Shown here in pieces: positions 3,648 through 11,892 of a stretch of 64,000 bases of DNA. The notes under the pieces are model-generated. The model worked only from the letters and a program-made list of their open reading frames with translations. It ran no database searches and had not been told where the DNA came from. A program made the position numbers and the translations under genes. Every line of letters starts with the position of its first letter. The stretch's first letter is position 1. The stretch is from Anaerolineae bacterium (GTDB lineage: Bacteria > Chloroflexota > Anaerolineae > Aggregatilineales > Phototrophicaceae). The stretch covers positions 62,001-126,000 of the forward strand of contig JALOOG010000001.1 of assembly GCA_025454525.1 (NCBI GenBank), given 5' to 3'.

Positions 3648-4325
3648 ATGGACACGAATGAACTTAGCGCAAAGATGCGTGATTACTTGGTCGAAATTTA
3701 TCGCTTAAGCGAACGCACTCAAAATCCGTATGTCAGCACTTCCCTTTTAGCAGATTTGCTGAATGTCACACCGCCCGCCGTGAATCGTATGGTTGCCCGC
3801 CTCAAAGAGGTCGATTTGTTGCAACATGAACCGTATCAGGGGATTCGACTCACTGAAAACGGTAAGCGTGAGGCCCTGATACATTTGCGACGGCATCGCA
3901 TTGTCGAGGCCTTTTTAGTCCAGGTGATGCGGTTTCAATGGCATGAAGTGTTTGAAGAAGCGCAACAATTGTCCGCAACCTTAAGCGATAGTTTGATGCA
4001 ACGGATGTGGGACATGGCCGGACAACCTCACTTTTGCCCACACGGAGAACCGATCCCAAGCAGTGACGGCACGATCAGCGCCTTAGCCGATCGGTTGATG
4101 ACCGAGGTGAACGCCGGGGAGACGGTGCGAATCACACGGGTACTGACACGGGACGCGGATCGATTGATGTATTTGAGCGCCTTGGGGTTAATGCCGGGGA
4201 CGACGATTCAAATCCTTCATCTTGCGCCGTTTAATGGGCCGTTACAGCTCAAAATGAAGGATGAATATCGGATTATCGGACATAACCTAGCCGAATTGAT
4301 CCGCGTGATTAAGGACGATTCCTAA
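3648..4325 (+). CDS. DtxR/MntR-family metal-dependent transcriptional regulator
   Basis: This predicted Fe(II)- or Mn(II)-responsive repressor has 225 residues. An N-terminal winged helix (about 1-75) has the typical PPAVNRMVARL recognition helix. A dimerisation/metal domain follows, with ligands in HRIVEAFL, WHEVFEEAQ and HFCPHGEPIP. The C-terminal 70 residues form a FeoA/SH3-like domain (LMPGTTIQILH). This is the full IdeR-type architecture rather than the short MntR form. It probably controls metal uptake, possibly including the ABC transporter at the window start, but no operator was recognised. The 3' end overlaps the converging tsaD by 17 nt. Confidence 0.88.
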   Translation: MDTNELSAKMRDYLVEIYRLSERTQNPYVSTSLLADLLNVTPPAVNRMVARLKEVDLLQHEPYQGIRLTENGKREALIHLRRHRIVEAFLVQVMRFQWHEVFEEAQQLSATLSDSLMQRMWDMAGQPHFCPHGEPIPSSDGTISALADRLMTEVNAGETVRITRVLTRDADRLMYLSALGLMPGTTIQILHLAPFNGPLQLKMKDEYRIIGHNLAELIRVIKDDS

Positions 4326-5382
4326 CGTTGTAAGTGTTGTTCGACAAAGCCCACATCGGCAAAACTTCCATATCAAGGTCATCCCGTAGACCGGATAGAT
4401 AACGGAAATGACCTGCTGAAGCGATCATTGCGGCATTATCGGTGCAAAGGTTCAGAGGGGGATAGCGCACCGGAAGATCCGTTTCTTTTCGCATTTGTGC
4501 GCGTAAGCGTTGGTTAGCACTGACTCCACCCGCCATAAACACCTCATGCGCGCCATAGTGTTTTGCGGCCCGGGCCGTTTTTTCGACAAGCGTATCCACC
4601 AACGCCTCTTGAAAACTTGCGGCCACATCGTTGATCGAAATATCTGACCGCAAGATCAATCCTTTTTCGGGTGCAGATTTTTTCCGCGCTTCTGATGAGG
4701 CCGGCACCGTCACCTCTCGCATGACCGCCGTTTTCAGTCCCGAAAAGCTAAAATCGAAACTTTGATCGCGTTTTGTGCGTGGAAACGGAAATGCACCCGG
4801 ATTACCCATTTGTGCTGCCCGTTCGATATTCGGCCCGCCAGGGAACGGGAGATTGAGCATCCTTCCGACTTTATCAAAGGCCTCACCGGCTGCATCGTCT
4901 AAGGTTGCGCCGAGTCGCTCATACTGCCCATGTCCGCGCATCAACAACAATTCGGTATGCCCACCAGAGACGATCAACACCAACACCGGAAAATTGACCT
5001 CACGAAACGGTTGGGTTAACCATAGCGAATAGACATGCCCTTCAAGGTGATTGATCCCCAACAGCGGTTTACGGGCGGCTAAGGCGAGGCCTTTTGCGTA
5101 ATTGATCCCGATTAACAGCGATCCCACTAGGCCCGGCCCACGAGTGACAGCGATCGCATCGATCTGATCTAAGGTGACTCCGGCATCTTCTAACGCTTGA
5201 TCCACCACTGCGCCGATCGCTTCAATGTGAGCGCGTGAGGCCAATTCAGGGAACACACCCCCATACTTTGCATGAAGGTCAATTTGAGAGGCGATTACGT
5301 TTGAAGCGGTGGTTTTGCCGTCAATCACCACAGCAGCAGCCGTTTCATCGCAGGAAGTTTCAATTCCAAGGATATAGGTCAT
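4309..5382 (-). CDS. tsaD: tRNA N6-adenosine threonylcarbamoyltransferase TsaD
   Basis: TsaD transfers the threonylcarbamoyl group from TC-AMP to A37 of ANN-decoding tRNAs, together with TsaB and TsaE (neither is in this window). The 357-residue protein starts with the canonical ILGIETSCDETAAAV. It has the iron-binding HLEGH motif, SGGHTEL, and the C-terminal FMAGGVSANQRLR and CTDNAAMIA ATP-site motifs. Start ATG 5382 was chosen because it places the conserved N-terminus at residue 1; a longer in-frame extension has no homology to the family. A lysine-rich insertion near residue 225 (EARKKSAPEKG) is longer than usual. It overlaps the end of the regulator gene. Confidence 0.97.
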   Translation of the reverse strand: MTYILGIETSCDETAAAVVIDGKTTASNVIASQIDLHAKYGGVFPELASRAHIEAIGAVVDQALEDAGVTLDQIDAIAVTRGPGLVGSLLIGINYAKGLALAARKPLLGINHLEGHVYSLWLTQPFREVNFPVLVLIVSGGHTELLLMRGHGQYERLGATLDDAAGEAFDKVGRMLNLPFPGGPNIERAAQMGNPGAFPFPRTKRDQSFDFSFSGLKTAVMREVTVPASSEARKKSAPEKGLILRSDISINDVAASFQEALVDTLVEKTARAAKHYGAHEVFMAGGVSANQRLRAQMRKETDLPVRYPPLNLCTDNAAMIASAGHFRYLSGLRDDLDMEVLPMWALSNNTYNVRNRP

Positions 5383-5521
5383 GATTGCTTGACTCAACTC
5401 TTTAAGATGACAATGATTCGAGTATAGCCGATCATCGGGTAAAATGGGCAATGAAATTGACAGTAAACCGAACGTATGTTTTACTGTATACAACGCGGAT
5501 GAATGTCGAAAGGAAACGCTG

Positions 5522-5818
5522 ATGTGGAGACAAGGTGATGTTTTGATCGCACAAGCTCAACTAATCCCAACCGATGCTAAGCCCCTACCCGTACCGATCC
5601 TAGCACGCGGTGAGATCACCGGCCATAGTCATCGGATCGCCGAACCGAATGCGGCGCAGTGTTGGGAGTTGAACGGTCAACTTTACTTAAAAGTGATCGC
5701 CGAAAGCGCGACCGTGATCCATGATGAACACCAACCGATCACTTTACCACAAGGGATCTATCGGGTCTGGTTACAACGGGAATATTCGCCGGAAGAGATT
5801 CGTCGTATTGTGGACTAA
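5522..5818 (+). CDS. Small conserved protein paired with the DUF6745-like LRR protein
   Basis: This is a 98-residue cytoplasmic protein without signal peptide or membrane segment. It opens MWRQGDVLIAQ and contains GEITGHSHRI, a block of beta-strand-like sequence, and a C-terminal LPQGIYRVWLQREYSPEE. I recognise this pattern as a small conserved protein often encoded next to LRR/DUF6745 proteins in Actinobacteria and Cyanobacteria; no function is known to me. Start ATG 5522 follows AAAGGAAA at a good distance; an ATG-less upstream extension was rejected. Only 6 nt separate it from the next gene, so the two form an operon. The two His residues in GHSH could bind metal, but this is speculation. 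Confidence 0.75.
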   Translation: MWRQGDVLIAQAQLIPTDAKPLPVPILARGEITGHSHRIAEPNAAQCWELNGQLYLKVIAESATVIHDEHQPITLPQGIYRVWLQREYSPEEIRRIVD

Positions 5819-5824
5819 GGCAAC

Positions 5825-6961
5825 ATGGCCAAAACGCAAAACAAACACCAGATGATTGATGAATATCTTGCCAGTGGCACACCGATTCCGGTAGAAATTG
5901 CACGGGAGGCGATTCTAAATGGCCAAGCCCGCCCCGGAATGCAGATCCAAGGGGTGTTGACCAACATCGATAACACAGCGGTTAAGGGTCGATTATTGCC
6001 TTTAGCGACCTTACCAGAGGATCTCACCGTAGACGGGTTGATCTTGCGTGATTACCCACAATTGACGGCACTCCCCAAGGGGCTTAAGGTCAAGTATCAA
6101 TTGGATGTCCAGAATTGCACCCAATTAACCGAATTACCTGACGGCCTCAATTGTTATGAGTTGAATGCGAGTCAAACCGCAATTGAGCGCTTGCCGGATG
6201 ACCTGCGCGTGCAGAATCGCTTGGATTTAACGGACTGTGAGCGTTTATGGCATTTACCAGAGGGCTTAAAAGTCGGGACGTTGATCTTACGCAATTGTAC
6301 CGGATTAGAGGCCCTACCCGAAGGCCTTGAGGTCAACTTCTTAGACATCAGTGGGTGTATCAACTTGACCAAATTTCCTAAAACCGGATCGATTCGGGTG
6401 CGGTTAAATATGCAGGGATGCTTCCGGATCAAGGCCTTGCCCGATTGGTTGACACAAGTGGCCCAACTCAATGTGAGCGGGTGTGCGATGTTAACTGCCT
6501 TGCCTACGCATCTACATGTTACCTCGCGTTTAGATCTCGCACATACCCAGATCACGACGTTACCTGAAGGAGCGCGCAAGGCCGCGTTATATTGGCGTGG
6601 TGTGCCGGTGGATGATCGCATCGTATTTCAACCAGAGACGATCCGCGGTGATGAAGTCCTGAATGAGCGCAACGCCGAACGCCGACGGGTGCTATTGGAT
6701 CGTATGGGTTATGAAGCCTTTGTGCGTGAAGTTGAAGCACAACTTATCGATAGTGATACCGATCCCGGAGGGCAACGCCAATTGTTGCGCGTCGATATGG
6801 AAGGCGATGAAGAGTTAATGTGTCTTTCTGTGATCTGCCCGTCCACGGCCCGGCAATATGTGATCCGTGTACCTCCACACATGCAGACGTGTCATCAAGC
6901 GGCCGCATGGATCGCGGGTTTTGATGATCCTAGTGAGTATCGTCCCCTAATTGAGACCTAA
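5825..6961 (+). CDS. Leucine-rich-repeat protein with DUF6745-like C-terminal domain
   Basis: This is a 378-residue soluble protein of unknown function. Residues about 58-255 consist of roughly ten short repeats of the LPxGL type, spaced about 20 residues, many with a Cys (NCTQL, DCERL, NCTGL, SGCINL, SGCAML). Residues 270-378 form a conserved tail with DRMGYEAFVRE, DTDPGGQRQLLRV, GDEELMCLSV and HQAAAWIAGF, which I match to the DUF6745 family. LRR arrays usually bind protein partners. It is cotranscribed with the 98-residue protein upstream. Its last 32 nt overlap the end of the converging radical SAM gene. Composition is like its neighbours, giving no sign of recent transfer. Confidence 0.8.
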   Translation: MAKTQNKHQMIDEYLASGTPIPVEIAREAILNGQARPGMQIQGVLTNIDNTAVKGRLLPLATLPEDLTVDGLILRDYPQLTALPKGLKVKYQLDVQNCTQLTELPDGLNCYELNASQTAIERLPDDLRVQNRLDLTDCERLWHLPEGLKVGTLILRNCTGLEALPEGLEVNFLDISGCINLTKFPKTGSIRVRLNMQGCFRIKALPDWLTQVAQLNVSGCAMLTALPTHLHVTSRLDLAHTQITTLPEGARKAALYWRGVPVDDRIVFQPETIRGDEVLNERNAERRRVLLDRMGYEAFVREVEAQLIDSDTDPGGQRQLLRVDMEGDEELMCLSVICPSTARQYVIRVPPHMQTCHQAAAWIAGFDDPSEYRPLIET

Positions 6962-7817
6962 GCCAAAGTGGTTCAGATGGGATTCGCTCTAGAATCCCAT
7001 TCCCGAATACTGCTGATAAACCAAGGTCATCTAGGTGAACATACCCGATATGACAACCACACGTCTGATGAGTGCAAAGGCGAGGCTGTAAGACCTGCTC
7101 AAAATCGGGATCATACAGATTGCCGATCGGCGTTTTGATAAAGTGGCAGCGTCGAATCACGCCATCCTCATTCACCGAGATCACCGACTCGCCCGTGCGA
7201 CAAGCTTTCTCTAAACTGGGATGCCGCTGATTGTTGATCGGGAACAGTGGATCGATCGCTTGAAAACGTGCGAGATGTCCCGAGTCATAATACCGATCAA
7301 CGCGCTTATAAGCGTTGATCCATAGATAAATGTGATCTGGTAGTTCTTGCCGTAATCGCTCAATTTCATCGGCATGTTCGGTTAAACCGACGACTCCGAC
7401 ACTAAAGCGCACCTTACGCCGATCCAATTCTAGGCATTTTGCGACAAACTTGGCGCGTGTGGTTTCGGACGGGTGATAGGTTGTCCAGAGCGCTAACTTG
7501 GATTTATCACAGTCGTCTACCCATGCCAAGCGAGATGATAAATTGGTCTGAATCGTCGCACGATCAACGTGTGGCATGTTGCTCAAGCGGATTAATGCCT
7601 GTTGATAGCGTTGACGGATCAAGGCCTCACCCCATGGCGTAAAAAACACCGAGATCTGATCGTTGACTCGGCCGGCAACCCAATCGATAAAGCGGGTTAA
7701 GGCGCGTGCATCGCGTTCGTGTTCGGCGCGAGTTTCGTGATGTTTTGCAAATGGGCAATATTCACAACCATAATTGCAACTTGAGAGCGATCCGCGATAT
7801 AAGATAGCCAATTTCAT
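6930..7817 (-). CDS. STM4011-family radical SAM protein
   Basis: This 295-residue radical S-adenosylmethionine enzyme is the last gene of the five-gene operon. The 4Fe-4S cluster motif is C14-x3-C18-x2-C21. The central region forms the rest of the barrel. The C-terminal part has further cysteines (KACRTGES, RRCHFIKT, LCTHQTCGCH), suggesting an auxiliary iron-sulfur site of the SPASM/twitch kind, as in peptide-modifying radical SAM enzymes. ATG 7817 overlaps the stop of the preceding gene in an ATGA junction. The 3' end overlaps the LRR/DUF6745 gene tail-to-tail by 32 nt. The family is named after a Salmonella locus tag and has no established reaction. Confidence 0.85.
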   Translation of the reverse strand: MKLAILYRGSLSSCNYGCEYCPFAKHHETRAEHERDARALTRFIDWVAGRVNDQISVFFTPWGEALIRQRYQQALIRLSNMPHVDRATIQTNLSSRLAWVDDCDKSKLALWTTYHPSETTRAKFVAKCLELDRRKVRFSVGVVGLTEHADEIERLRQELPDHIYLWINAYKRVDRYYDSGHLARFQAIDPLFPINNQRHPSLEKACRTGESVISVNEDGVIRRCHFIKTPIGNLYDPDFEQVLQPRLCTHQTCGCHIGYVHLDDLGLSAVFGNGILERIPSEPLWLRSQLGDDTH

Positions 7818-9133
7818 CGGGCCACATACTCCTCTATCAGGCGATGAGTCGCATCGGAATACAACCACACGCCGATCGTATCAGAAAGTTCTAACCCTTG
7901 TGAAGTCAAGCGAAGCGTCGTGTCATCATGAGTGGCTAAACCCAACGTAAACAGTTGATCCAATTGAGGAAAATCACTAAAAACCGATGTCGTGAACCAT
8001 GCTTGATAAGCGTTGAGTGCGAGTCCCTCCGCTTGTAATAACGACTTGATCAGGTAACGTCTACGTTGTTCTTCATCGTTCAGGGTACATCCATGATAGG
8101 CATATCTGAAACTCTCCGTCGGACGATCGACAAAATCGTTTAAAATGGCACGCACTCCCGTATAACCTACCGCGTATTCAGTGGAATAATGCAAGTTGCG
8201 CGTATACGAACGCGCTCCACACCCTAAGCCGACCATGCCGTCTTCTTGGCAACAATAGATCGGTGCGTCTTGGGTGGGTGCATGAGGTGCGCGAAACATT
8301 CGCATCGACACTTGGGTATAACCGGCCGCAAGCAATTGATCCCGCCCGGCCCGATAACAGGCCAATCGGTGATCATCCCATGATCGCCCCATGCGATCGA
8401 GTCCGGTCAATGGGCGTTTATACAGCGGATAGAGGTAAAGTTCTTCAGGGGCAAAGTCTAACGCCCTCTGGAGCGATTCTGACCAAGTAGCTAGTGTTTG
8501 ACCGGGTAGCCCGTAGATCAAGTCAATATTGAGCGTTGGAATCCGCGACTCGCGGATCTGATGAAGCGCCTTGATCACCTCATCCGTGCGTTGTGCGCGC
8601 CCGACTCCCTGAACTTCACTTTCGATAAAACTCTGTACGCCGATGCTGATCCGTGTCGTGCCACGTTCATATAACAATTGCAGTTTTTCCAATTGTGCGG
8701 TTTGGGGTGAGGTTTCCACCGAGATCGGTCTCCCTTGCAGATCGACTCCATAGAGCGTTTCAACGAGGTCAAACAAGCGTGCTAGATCATGAGTCGCGAG
8801 ATAAGTCGGTGTGCCACCCCCGATCGCCATGCGTGCATAGCGCGCCGGCCCGATCGCTTGGGCGACCTGTTCGGCTTGCCGAGTGAGCGCGTCCATGTAA
8901 CGCCTCTCAAGGCTTTGATCGGCGTTCACTGTGGTAAACAGGTTACAAAACCCGCAACGCATCTCGCAAAATGGGATATGCAGGTAGAGAAACAATCCGG
9001 TTTTCGCCTCATCATGCCATACCGCGCTTAACGGCATGATCGGAGTGAATGGACGATAAGCGGTCTTATGGGGATACGAATAGGAATAGGCCCGATAAGG
9101 GGTCTCCTGTAACCAAGTTTGTAGCGGGATCAT
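7814..9133 (-). CDS. STM4012-family radical SAM protein (HemN/HemW-like)
   Basis: This 439-residue radical SAM protein resembles oxygen-independent coproporphyrinogen oxidase. The cluster motif is C56-x3-C60-x2-C63 in HIPFCEMRCGFC. It is followed by GGGTPTYL, the RISIGVQSF strand and a HemW-like C-terminal domain. HemN-family enzymes bind two SAM molecules or act as haem chaperones, but the STM4012 family travels with STM4011-STM4015 genes rather than haem genes and its substrate is unknown. It is joined to both neighbours by 4-nt ATGA overlaps, so stoichiometric coupled translation is likely. Misannotation as HemN is a real risk. Confidence 0.87.
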   Translation of the reverse strand: MIPLQTWLQETPYRAYSYSYPHKTAYRPFTPIMPLSAVWHDEAKTGLFLYLHIPFCEMRCGFCNLFTTVNADQSLERRYMDALTRQAEQVAQAIGPARYARMAIGGGTPTYLATHDLARLFDLVETLYGVDLQGRPISVETSPQTAQLEKLQLLYERGTTRISIGVQSFIESEVQGVGRAQRTDEVIKALHQIRESRIPTLNIDLIYGLPGQTLATWSESLQRALDFAPEELYLYPLYKRPLTGLDRMGRSWDDHRLACYRAGRDQLLAAGYTQVSMRMFRAPHAPTQDAPIYCCQEDGMVGLGCGARSYTRNLHYSTEYAVGYTGVRAILNDFVDRPTESFRYAYHGCTLNDEEQRRRYLIKSLLQAEGLALNAYQAWFTTSVFSDFPQLDQLFTLGLATHDDTTLRLTSQGLELSDTIGVWLYSDATHRLIEEYVAR

Positions 9134-9927
9134 ACTCGACGCTCCGCTAACGTCATTTCAGCATACGGCACCGTCCACACAATCGGATGTGCGAGGCGAT
9201 GTCCGCTATATCCGTCTTCACCGTAAGTTGTGCCGTGATCCGAGGTGAGAATGGCGAACAACGGCCCGCGCCGTTGCAGGGTCTCGAATAACGGGGGTAA
9301 ATGCCGATCCACATACGACAAGGCGGCTAATTGTGTATCGGGGGTGTCTACGGTCGCATCTGGCACAAACATACAATTGGGTTGATGCAACGCCGAAATG
9401 TTGATAAACAAAAACACCCGTTGTTGACGCGGGATCGCGTTTAAGCGATCGATCGCTAAGGCGACTTGATGCGCTGTCGAATGCGGATCAGTCACTCCCA
9501 TTGACGGATGCCAATGGCTTTCCGCGAATAGACTCGGCAAGACATTTCCCAACGGGCTTTGTTTGTTGAAGAAGCCGACTCCTCCGATACAGATCGTATG
9601 ATAGCCCGCTTCGGCAAAGCCGCTCACAATATCGGGCGTATCAAACACTAAGGTTTGATCGGTGGTGGTGCCGCTTCCGGGAAAACGGGCCGCAAATCGG
9701 CGCGGATGCGATCCGGGGGTGATCGGAGTCGGCAAAAATCCCGCAAAAAATGCTTGATGCGCTGCATAGGTAAAACTTCCCGGTGTATGACGCATTTCCC
9801 ATTGTCCACCGGGTAACAGTTCCGCTAAAAACGGCGTTTTTCGCTCTTGTATTCCACGTTGTGCCACATCGTAGCGCAAGGTGTCTAAAGTGATCAATAA
9901 AAAATCATGAATGCCTAGGAGCATCAT
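9130..9927 (-). CDS. STM4013-family hydrolase (alkaline phosphatase/sulfatase superfamily)
   Basis: This 265-residue protein has the alkaline-phosphatase-superfamily layout. D15 lies in LITLDTLRYD, a nucleophile position in PGSFTYAAHQAFFAG (Thr53, or Ser51), and metal ligands in the tail (D230-H231, H243, H247). The Cys/Ser-x-Pro-x-Arg signature of formylglycine sulfatases is absent, so it is more likely a phospho-hydrolase or phospho-transferase using Thr/Ser than a sulfatase. No signal peptide is seen, unlike most sulfatases, so it should act in the cytoplasm on the product of its operon partners. It overlaps the upstream gene by 23 nt and the downstream gene by 4 nt. No clear ribosome-binding site precedes it, consistent with coupling. 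Confidence 0.83.
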   Translation of the reverse strand: MMLLGIHDFLLITLDTLRYDVAQRGIQERKTPFLAELLPGGQWEMRHTPGSFTYAAHQAFFAGFLPTPITPGSHPRRFAARFPGSGTTTDQTLVFDTPDIVSGFAEAGYHTICIGGVGFFNKQSPLGNVLPSLFAESHWHPSMGVTDPHSTAHQVALAIDRLNAIPRQQRVFLFINISALHQPNCMFVPDATVDTPDTQLAALSYVDRHLPPLFETLQRRGPLFAILTSDHGTTYGEDGYSGHRLAHPIVWTVPYAEMTLAERRV

Positions 9928-10960
9928 CTAAAACCGCCAAAATTTCCTCTGTATAGGTATCGTGACCTTTGTATAATACACCCGGTAACAGATCCCCAAA
10001 AGCGTTGACTTCTAACACATAATGCCGTCGAAAATCAGAGGTGATCAACAGATCAATGCCCGCATATAGGCTATTAGGGAATGCGGTCATCACCCGTTCA
10101 CTGGTCTCCACAATCGCGTCCCATTGACCCGGACGTAAGCGCGCCTTGACCGTATCGAGATCGCCGCGTTGATTTAACAAGTGTAAATTTGTGATCGGGG
10201 TGTGGCTTTGACGTACCACCCCTTGACACACCCGCCCCTTGATCATCACCAAGCGCAAATCAAACACCTGATTGTTGATCGCCGCTTTGGGAATCCATTC
10301 TTCAGCATGAGTTGGATACATACACACTTCATCGATCAATAACGCGATCTCTAGGTGTGTCGTCAGGGTGCGAAGCTTACGCGAATTATACAGCCTGCTG
10401 AATCCGTTTTCGATCGTGGTGATCGCTTGGTGTTGATGCCCTAGGGTTCGATATGCGATCATGCCAGAAGCATTTGATCCGTGTGTGAGTTTGATAAATA
10501 CACGATTGATCCTCGCATCGCGCATCTTACTGATCAAGTCCTCATAACCGCTGATCGGCCCTAAGGATCGCGGTTGTGGAATACCGATGCTTTCTAGACG
10601 AGTCCGACATTGCCATTTATCGAACATGATCAGGATGTCCTCCGGCGGGTTCATCCACCGTGTGATCGGCGAACGCAAGGCTTCGATCCGACGCATCACC
10701 ATATCAAGGCCACAATACCAACGATACGGGTTAAAGAGCTGCCCTTTCGGAAGATCAACGTTCATCCCCAAGAGGTAACGTTGAGCGTTAGGGTCTTTCC
10801 CCGGTGATTCGATCCGTAAAAATGGGGTGATCGGAAGTGCCGTAAGGTCAGCAATCGTCGGATAGGGGATCACTTCGGCCGCGGGTAAGTGAAGGGAATG
10901 GAGAGCCGCTTGAAACAACTCCACGCGCCGATCACCGGGACTCCCAATCACCGTAAACAC
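9905..10960 (-). CDS. STM4014-family protein, ATP-grasp fold
   Basis: This 351-residue protein is predicted to be an ATP-grasp ligase. The N-terminal third is poorly conserved. A middle region holds nucleotide-binding features (VFIKLTHGSNASGM), and YVLEVNAFGD near the end supplies the Glu/Asn magnesium ligands (about E317 and N319). ATP-grasp enzymes join a carboxylate to an amine or thiol through an acyl-phosphate, so in this operon it could ligate an amino acid or small molecule to a peptide or protein. Two nt separate it from the upstream LRR gene and it overlaps the downstream hydrolase gene by 23 nt. Confidence 0.8.
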   Translation of the reverse strand: MFTVIGSPGDRRVELFQAALHSLHLPAAEVIPYPTIADLTALPITPFLRIESPGKDPNAQRYLLGMNVDLPKGQLFNPYRWYCGLDMVMRRIEALRSPITRWMNPPEDILIMFDKWQCRTRLESIGIPQPRSLGPISGYEDLISKMRDARINRVFIKLTHGSNASGMIAYRTLGHQHQAITTIENGFSRLYNSRKLRTLTTHLEIALLIDEVCMYPTHAEEWIPKAAINNQVFDLRLVMIKGRVCQGVVRQSHTPITNLHLLNQRGDLDTVKARLRPGQWDAIVETSERVMTAFPNSLYAGIDLLITSDFRRHYVLEVNAFGDLLPGVLYKGHDTYTEEILAVLDDAPRHS

Positions 10961-10962
10961 CG

Positions 10963-11892
10963 TTATTCTCCGTTCAGGACATAGCGCTGGTTGTCGTATG
11001 TGTCCGGTTGTCGTTGATTAAAAATGACCACTTCAATCGGCAATTGTCCTAGTTTTTCTACGATGGCATCGCTACAAAAGTGATGCTCTAGGCGCAAGGT
11101 TTTTAATTTGAGGGTCTTGGGGCTGTTGATAAGTGCTTCTGCTCCCTCATCCCCAAACGTTCCGAACGAAAAATCTAAGCTGCTGATCTGATCTAAAAGG
11201 GTTGAATTGACAATCTGTTGGGCGATCTCATCAGCGATCTCACTGTCGCATAAGCCAAGGGCGCTAAGTTTTGGAAAGCGATCTAGGCTTTGGATAAAAC
11301 GTGCGACATCATCGATCGTCCCGTTCCATCCGTAACCACTTGTGCCTAACCACAATTCAAGCGACTCAAGGTTAGGCAAGTCTGACCGTGCGAGGTCTTG
11401 TAAGATCCGAATATCTAAGCCGCCCGTTTGCACCGTCAAGCTTTTTAATGCCGCATGTTGGATCACGTTAAAGATCAATCCCTCACCGCCACGCACTCCA
11501 AGATGTTCTAATTGCGGGTATGCCTCAAACAACGGCGCGATGTCGCTCTGTATGATCCACGAAAGCTCATTTTCTTCATAGGTGATGTCCCCTAAAAAGA
11601 TCGCTTTTAGGTGAGGTAAACGGGCATTTACCAACGCTTCTACGATTGGAGAAGAGTCGCGTTGATCAAAATCGCTGGCCCAATGTCCGATGACGATCCC
11701 GGTAATTTGAGCCACGTTGGGATGTGCGAGAAATCGGGCGAAATGATAACCCCAATCGCTTTCACTATCCCATCCGATCGCAATCCGGTAGAAAACATCA
11801 AGATTTAGCGGGTCTTGTGGGTCAAATTCATCGGGAGACCAATCAACGACCGATTTTCCCGCAAATGAACGGAGATGCTCACTAATCGCCAT
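10963..11892 (-). CDS. STM4015-family leucine-rich-repeat protein
   Basis: This is the first gene of the five-gene operon, encoding 309 residues. After an N-terminal region (FAGKSVVDW and a run of acidic residues) it has irregular leucine-rich repeats such as LPHLKAIFLGDI, YPQLEHLGVRGG, LPNLESLELWLG and FPKLSALGLCDS. These repeats are of the ribonuclease-inhibitor-like length, unlike the short LPxGL repeats of the other LRR protein in this locus. No signal peptide is present. As a non-enzymatic partner it may be the substrate, scaffold or specificity subunit for the enzymes behind it. AGGAG lies just upstream of the ATG. Confidence 0.83.
   Translation of the reverse strand: MAISEHLRSFAGKSVVDWSPDEFDPQDPLNLDVFYRIAIGWDSESDWGYHFARFLAHPNVAQITGIVIGHWASDFDQRDSSPIVEALVNARLPHLKAIFLGDITYEENELSWIIQSDIAPLFEAYPQLEHLGVRGGEGLIFNVIQHAALKSLTVQTGGLDIRILQDLARSDLPNLESLELWLGTSGYGWNGTIDDVARFIQSLDRFPKLSALGLCDSEIADEIAQQIVNSTLLDQISSLDFSFGTFGDEGAEALINSPKTLKLKTLRLEHHFCSDAIVEKLGQLPIEVVIFNQRQPDTYDNQRYVLNGE

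Follow-up and report, generated by a model that had tools for sequence, protein, structure and literature searches.

The STM4011-STM4015 operon lies within a 64,000-nucleotide stretch of an Anaerolineae bacterium genome of 5.2 Mb (assembly GCA_025454525.1, contig JALOOG010000001.1, positions 62,001 to 126,000; hereafter the window). We propose, with moderate confidence, that STM4011-STM4015 constitute a protein-tail modification (carrier) system, whose substrates are leucine-rich repeat (LRR) proteins of the STM4015 type. Its central feature is a conserved heptapeptide at the C-terminus of STM4015, the occurrence of which depends upon the operon. The cassette ranges over Salmonella, cyanobacteria, myxobacteria, planctomycetes, Chloroflexota and Streptomyces. 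The tail offers a residue-level target; because it points to a likely substrate, place of modification and ligase, this orphan radical SAM pathway can be put to the test.

The operon occupies the minus strand, its genes head to tail from 11892 to 6930 in the order STM4015-STM4014-STM4013-STM4012-STM4011:

10963..11892, minus strand: STM4015, LRR protein, proposed carrier or substrate (NCBIfam 3e-86)
10966..10986, minus strand: STM4015 C-terminal heptapeptide R-Y-V-L-N-G-E, proposed modification or attachment site (sequence and family consensus)
9905..10960, minus strand: STM4014, ATP-grasp protein related to RimK, LysX and MptN (NCBIfam 1e-107)
9130..9927, minus strand: STM4013, alkaline-phosphatase-superfamily enzyme (NCBIfam 1e-120)
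7814..9133, minus strand: STM4012, radical SAM enzyme related to HemN and HutW (NCBIfam 1e-181)
6930..7817, minus strand (open reading frame (ORF) from GTG 7868): STM4011, radical SAM enzyme (NCBIfam 2e-122)

All five proteins exceed the curated cut-offs of their NCBIfam families. This bears out the initial annotation, which had read five coupled genes for two radical SAM enzymes, an alkaline-phosphatase-superfamily hydrolase, an ATP-grasp protein and an LRR protein. The start of STM4011 is most likely the ATG at 7817, giving a 4-base overlap with STM4012, since the ORF opened by the GTG matches the family only from residue 21 onwards. A scan of genome contigs placed the closest named relative of the operon in a Chloroflexota metagenome-assembled genome. 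NCBIfam already names and catalogues the same five genes without function, as the initial annotation had said of families known by locus tags. The open literature searched (subscription papers and web sources lay outside the search) holds nothing on STM4011-15 function, on DUF6745, the domain of a companion protein described below, or on LRR/radical-SAM ribosomally synthesised and post-translationally modified peptides (RiPPs). Nor do the NCBIfam descriptions examined mention the tail, its dependence on the operon or the DUF6745 partner. Within that literature these three features, and the LysX-like ligase logic set out below, appear to be new.

STM4015 homologues close with R-[YF]-V-A-V-[GS]-E, whose Glu immediately precedes the stop codon; a variable, Asp- and Glu-rich linker comes before it. 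In 101 distinct STM4015 C-termini, Arg occupies position -7 in 89, Tyr or Phe position -6 in 94, and Glu position -1 in 97; Phe takes the place of Tyr in about a fifth. The STM4015 of the window ends QRYVLNGE. All 41 STM4015-type proteins of the 30 best loci possess the tail. Across the 16,345 ORFs of the collected loci the pattern is confined to STM4015 genes, apart from one extra match, to what is left of the 3' part of a disrupted STM4015 gene. DUF6745 proteins (which end ET or QT) and their 98-residue partners (which end in D) lack it, phage copies included.

The distribution of the tail matches that of the operon. STM4011 exceeds its cut-off in 61 of 145 genomes of the myxobacterial class (the class of an Archangium metagenome-assembled genome). 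Among the matches listed, which were counted manually and include weaker ones only in part, 114 LRR matches extend to the final position of the tail, and the genomes that encode them are precisely the 61 with STM4011. Eight operon-negative genomes of the class also encode LRR homologues; of seven such sequences read, from five genomes, none has the tail. Two close operon-negative homologues (L312 in genome G802 and L313 in G803) end GRTVAVVD and EGRIVASLDES. These look like decayed tails, in which Tyr and Glu would have been lost after loss of the operon. Without contact between the operon products and the tail, so clean a split would be difficult to account for. In Actinomycetes, STM4011 and STM4015 exceed their cut-offs in the same 19 of 198 genomes, each with a single STM4011 and between one and five STM4015. 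Some of these STM4015 genes are on other contigs or about 100 kb from the operon, and their products are Glu-terminal where read. One genome (G822) combines a single STM4011 with around 15 tail-bearing LRR proteins, scattered over different contigs and varied in their N-termini (WGR, TIGR02996-like and others). This suggests, at the level of sequence, that one enzyme set serves many tail-bearing substrates.

The enzymes retain the residues their chemistry would need, judged over some 70 homologues of each. STM4014 conserves K115, K157, E220, D303, E317 and N319. Its best PDB profile match is Thermus LysX (4e-5), and of 26 members compared with remote models, 16 matched rimK_fam, 12 MptN, 10 LysX (TIGR02144) and 2 CofF; together with the NCBIfam match this backs its reading as an ATP-grasp protein. 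Enzymes of the RimK, LysX and MptN kind couple the carboxyl of a terminal glutamate to an amino group. In all 58 loci that hold both genes, STM4014 lies next to STM4015 on the same strand, and their adjacency persists where STM4013-4012-4011 sit apart or run in the opposite direction. This organisation would fit an operon made of a ligase-carrier pair (STM4014-STM4015) and a three-enzyme unit (STM4013-4012-4011). Both radical SAM enzymes conserve CxxxCxxC. STM4011 has in addition a SPASM/twitch-like motif, C223-x12-G236-x4-C241 plus C265, C270 and C272 (at least 95% conserved), and its sole PDB profile match is the RiPP maturase SkfB (E 0.001). SPASM-type radical SAM enzymes act mainly on peptides and proteins. 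In STM4013 the metal ligands and nucleophile are in place (D15, T53, D230, H231 and H243, at least 95% conserved); the protein aligns with sulfatases and nucleotide pyrophosphatases, T53 falling on the nucleophile region of the latter. Two other functions were considered and rejected. Anaerobic sulfatase maturation, by STM4011 acting on STM4013, is at odds with the Thr at the STM4013 nucleophile position, where Cys or Ser would be expected; as for anti-phage defence, PADLOC reports no defence model beyond an incomplete match of STM4012 on the radical SAM component.

We infer a covalent modification of the tail, with its terminal Glu as the ligation site, and would assign the steps and roles as follows. 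In STM4015 the LRR domain would be the body, the acidic segment a flexible linker and the C-terminal heptapeptide the working end. STM4014 would activate the carboxylate of the C-terminal Glu and join to it an amine, such as an amino acid, much as LysX acts on LysW. STM4011 (SPASM-type) and STM4012 would then alter the tethered group or neighbouring tail residues. STM4013, with its Thr nucleophile, may remove or transfer a phospho group, or release the product. The initial annotation had raised modification of the LRR proteins as one option. This is best supported for STM4015, because its C-terminal tail is operon-dependent; the LRR protein that carries DUF6745 has no STM4015-type tail. A more ambitious form of the proposal, possible but doubtful at present, is that many LRR proteins with interchangeable N-terminal modules carry one cofactor-like prosthetic group on a universal Glu tail, which the single LysX-like ligase, the two radical SAM enzymes and the phosphodiesterase-like enzyme would build there. 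If true, a tail with a new prosthetic group common to many LRR proteins would add a further kind to the known post-translational modifications.

Known systems supply precedents for parts of this scheme. RimK is an ATP-grasp enzyme that ligates glutamate to the C-terminus of ribosomal protein S6, with a C-terminal Glu as acceptor and without known radical SAM partners. STM4014 probably falls in the same ATP-grasp clade and would likewise use a C-terminal Glu as acceptor, whereas its proposed substrate is not S6 and radical SAM partners are present. Another parallel is with LysX, which links its substrate, through the amino group, to the C-terminal Glu of LysW at the gamma-carboxyl; LysW ends EDWGE and its tail is read by the GSWGR motif of LysX (PMC10433800). 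The STM4011-15 operon resembles this system in (i) an ATP-grasp protein next to the partner gene, STM4014, a putative ligase with remote similarity to LysX; (ii) a partner, STM4015, with a conserved C-terminal Glu (97 of 101) in an acidic context; and (iii) further enzymes in the same operon. It differs in that these further enzymes are radical SAM and alkaline-phosphatase-superfamily proteins, not LysZ, LysY, LysJ or LysK, and in having many carriers per genome. STM4011 resembles the SPASM RiPP maturases PqqE, MftC and SkfB in its CxxxCxxC core, its C-terminal auxiliary-cluster Cys residues and its likely peptide-tail substrate, although it has five auxiliary Cys against the usual seven. In the peptide aminoacyl-tRNA ligase (PEARL) pathways to 3-thiaglutamate and the ammosamides, a gene-encoded scaffold similarly receives a group at its C-terminus, which later steps remodel; PEARLs, however, use aminoacyl-tRNA and short scaffold peptides, from which a small product is cleaved off (PMC9016710, PMC11117183).

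Distant STM4015-like proteins of Gemmata and Singulisphaera depart from the consensus and end GDYE, GDIE or GDWE, with the terminal Glu kept. These planctomycete endings resemble the EDWGE of LysW; the proteins concerned (L085:10854-12362, L106:9398-10621 and L106:10657-12072) have N-termini that are WGR-like or TIGR02996-like by eye.

Several observations weigh against the tail-modification proposal. The homology of STM4014 to LysX and RimK is remote and the single-domain E-values are weak. GSWGR is absent from STM4014, where a GSxAS-like motif replaces it; this is in keeping with a different tail (RYVAVGE). STM4015 is an LRR protein and not a small Zn-ribbon like LysW, and RYVAVGE is not EDWGE. 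Some STM4015 paralogues in operon-positive genomes have no tail, so not every LRR relative would be a substrate. The myxobacterial genomes are related, and 61 of 61 does not equal 61 independent events; the LRR profile used there also contains the tail columns, a marginal bias towards tail-bearing matches for which the reading of sequences served as a check. The tail could be a binding motif instead of a reaction site. Finally, the model leaves the DUF6745 pair unexplained.

The same evidence was weighed under other readings. If the system were RiPP-like, the tail would be a core peptide that the radical SAM pair cross-links or rearranges before it is cut off as a small molecule, with the LRR protein as leader, in the manner of pyrroloquinoline quinone or mycofactocin. 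The peptide preference of SPASM-type enzymes, the match of STM4011 to SkfB, the several tail-bearing proteins per enzyme set and the conserved Tyr/Phe and Glu would all suit such a pathway. We nevertheless regard it as unlikely: clustering of neighbouring ORFs of at least 70 residues identified no recurrent precursor peptide, dedicated protease or exporter family near the operon, a carrier of 300-700 residues with varied N-terminal domains and genome-wide scatter would be an unusual disposable leader, and Phe substitutes for Tyr in about a fifth of tails. The tail may instead be a docking or regulatory handle by which the enzymes bind STM4015 while their chemistry is directed at another substrate (a cofactor, a nucleotide or the DUF6745 pair). 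Strong conservation and operon dependence would fit any direct contact, and STM4013 resembles enzymes for phosphodiesters or sulfates; yet the position of Glu right before the stop codon, and the RimK/LysX-type ligase gene that adjoins in every locus with both genes, point to the carboxyl end, and there is perhaps a small chance that docking is the whole explanation. Tagging as by RimK, with STM4014 adding one or more amino acids to LRR proteins as a regulatory mark that the radical SAM and phospho enzymes make or remove, would agree with rimK_fam being the commonest remote match and with the number of tail-bearing proteins per genome. Such tagging would give no reason of its own for the two radical SAM enzymes and the phospho-hydrolase present in nearly every operon, and we consider it very improbable.

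A different question is whether the STM4011-15 operon has a functional partner in the two genes that face it, completing a seven-gene module that is present and intact in the window:

5522..5818, plus strand: 98-residue protein, first gene of the pair (ORF, alignment and AlphaFold2 model)
5825..6961, plus strand: LRR protein with C-terminal DUF6745, second gene of the pair (Pfam PF20530, 5e-21, over cut-off)
6485..6958, plus strand: DUF6745 domain, residues 221-378 (PF20530, 75.3 bits against a gathering cut-off of 27; last 134 residues modelled)

The two-gene unit, its small conserved protein and the DUF6745-like tail of its LRR protein were all correctly described from the sequence. Pair and operon are convergent, the 3' ends of the DUF6745 gene and STM4011 overlapping by 32 bases (6930-6961), and a comparable tail-to-tail overlap is seen in Deinococcus, planctomycete and Chloroflexota loci. 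The pair adjoins the operon in 23 of the best 80 STM4011 loci compared across genomes, in Chloroflexota, Planctomycetota, Verrucomicrobiota, Actinomycetota and others. It may follow STM4011 tail-to-tail, precede STM4015 in divergent orientation, separate STM4011 from STM4014 or STM4015 from STM4013, or lie upstream in the same direction, with at least five gene orders overall. That the neighbourhood is kept while its order is shuffled speaks for a functional link. In the host's own class (199 genomes) STM4014 exceeds its cut-off in two genomes and DUF6745 in one, the window's host only; since both parts are so rare, their linkage is far from chance.

The alternative is that pair and operon hitch-hike together on plasmids and islands without any functional link. 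Both are patchy and mobile: they occur together on plasmids of three Deinococcus species, Methylobacterium, Nonomuraea and two Streptomyces. Each is also found without the other, the operon in Salmonella, Paenibacillus and Bacteroides plasmid copies, and the pair on a D. ficus plasmid, on a Skermanella plasmid and, in distant versions, in some genomes and in phages including Microcystis phages. Hitch-hiking would not readily produce linkage in many phyla and in so many gene orders. In the Actinomycetes sample STM4011 lies no more than about 7 kb from each of the nine DUF6745 genes that score below 1e-90 (this does not hold for the weaker, phage-like ones), and in the 301 genomes of the host's phylum, Chloroflexota, all eight with STM4011 also have DUF6745, even though six of these, all of one genus, are unlinked. 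Hitch-hiking alone is, we judge, quite improbable. Together the seven genes form a genuine module that recombines; within it the pair is an optional companion, and the link is one-sided. The initial annotation had treated pair and operon as one system: the association across phyla stands, while an obligate partnership does not, as the pair is absent from about half of the operons; among STM4011-bearing actinomycetes, 10 of 19 have no linked DUF6745. The neighbour clustering detected no other family widely common to the operon loci. A HAD-family hydrolase sits beside or inside a few clusters (L067:11351-12178 and L132:7154-7873, with relatives in L084, L126 and L131).

The 98-residue protein has no Pfam or NCBIfam match. 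It aligns with 43 homologues, and in the resulting 44 rows His35, His37, His67, His70 and the C-terminal Asp are invariant. AlphaFold2 predicts an all-beta protein (mean predicted local distance difference test score, pLDDT, 85). The C-terminal 134 residues of the DUF6745 protein were modelled with a mean pLDDT of 92, and neither model has a PDB fold match at E <= 0.001. DUF6745 proteins have LRR N-termini in Deinococcus, Chloroflexota, planctomycetes and Verrucomicrobium and non-LRR N-termini in Streptomyces; in phages this part is encoded by a long tandem repeat of 12 bases. In the scheme above the pair would be an optional accessory in some lineages; that it is a metal-binding one acting with the operon is only a guess.

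Scans of the locus found no RNA elements, and promoter and terminator scans gave nothing above chance. The gene divergent from the pair (window 4309-5493, minus strand) is TsaD-like by eye (tRNA threonylcarbamoyladenosine synthesis).

By eye, phage copies of the pair lie in early/replication or integrase regions, which give no clear functional pointer. Microcystis phage MaMV-DC carries a pair (L075:4974-6508), and neighbours in Microcystis phages are DNA polymerase, exonuclease, dUTPase and uracil-DNA glycosylase. Phage DUF6745 genes (L042:5284-6642, L045:5313-6578, L047:5327-6670, L049:5320-6663, L038:5306-6721 and L076:3613-4899) contain 15-41 head-to-tail units of 12 bases, near-identical save for one or two codons. 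The variable codon is almost only GGG, TGG, CGG/AGG or GAG (Gly, Trp, Arg or Glu); the unit sequence varies by phage whilst this codon set stays much alike.

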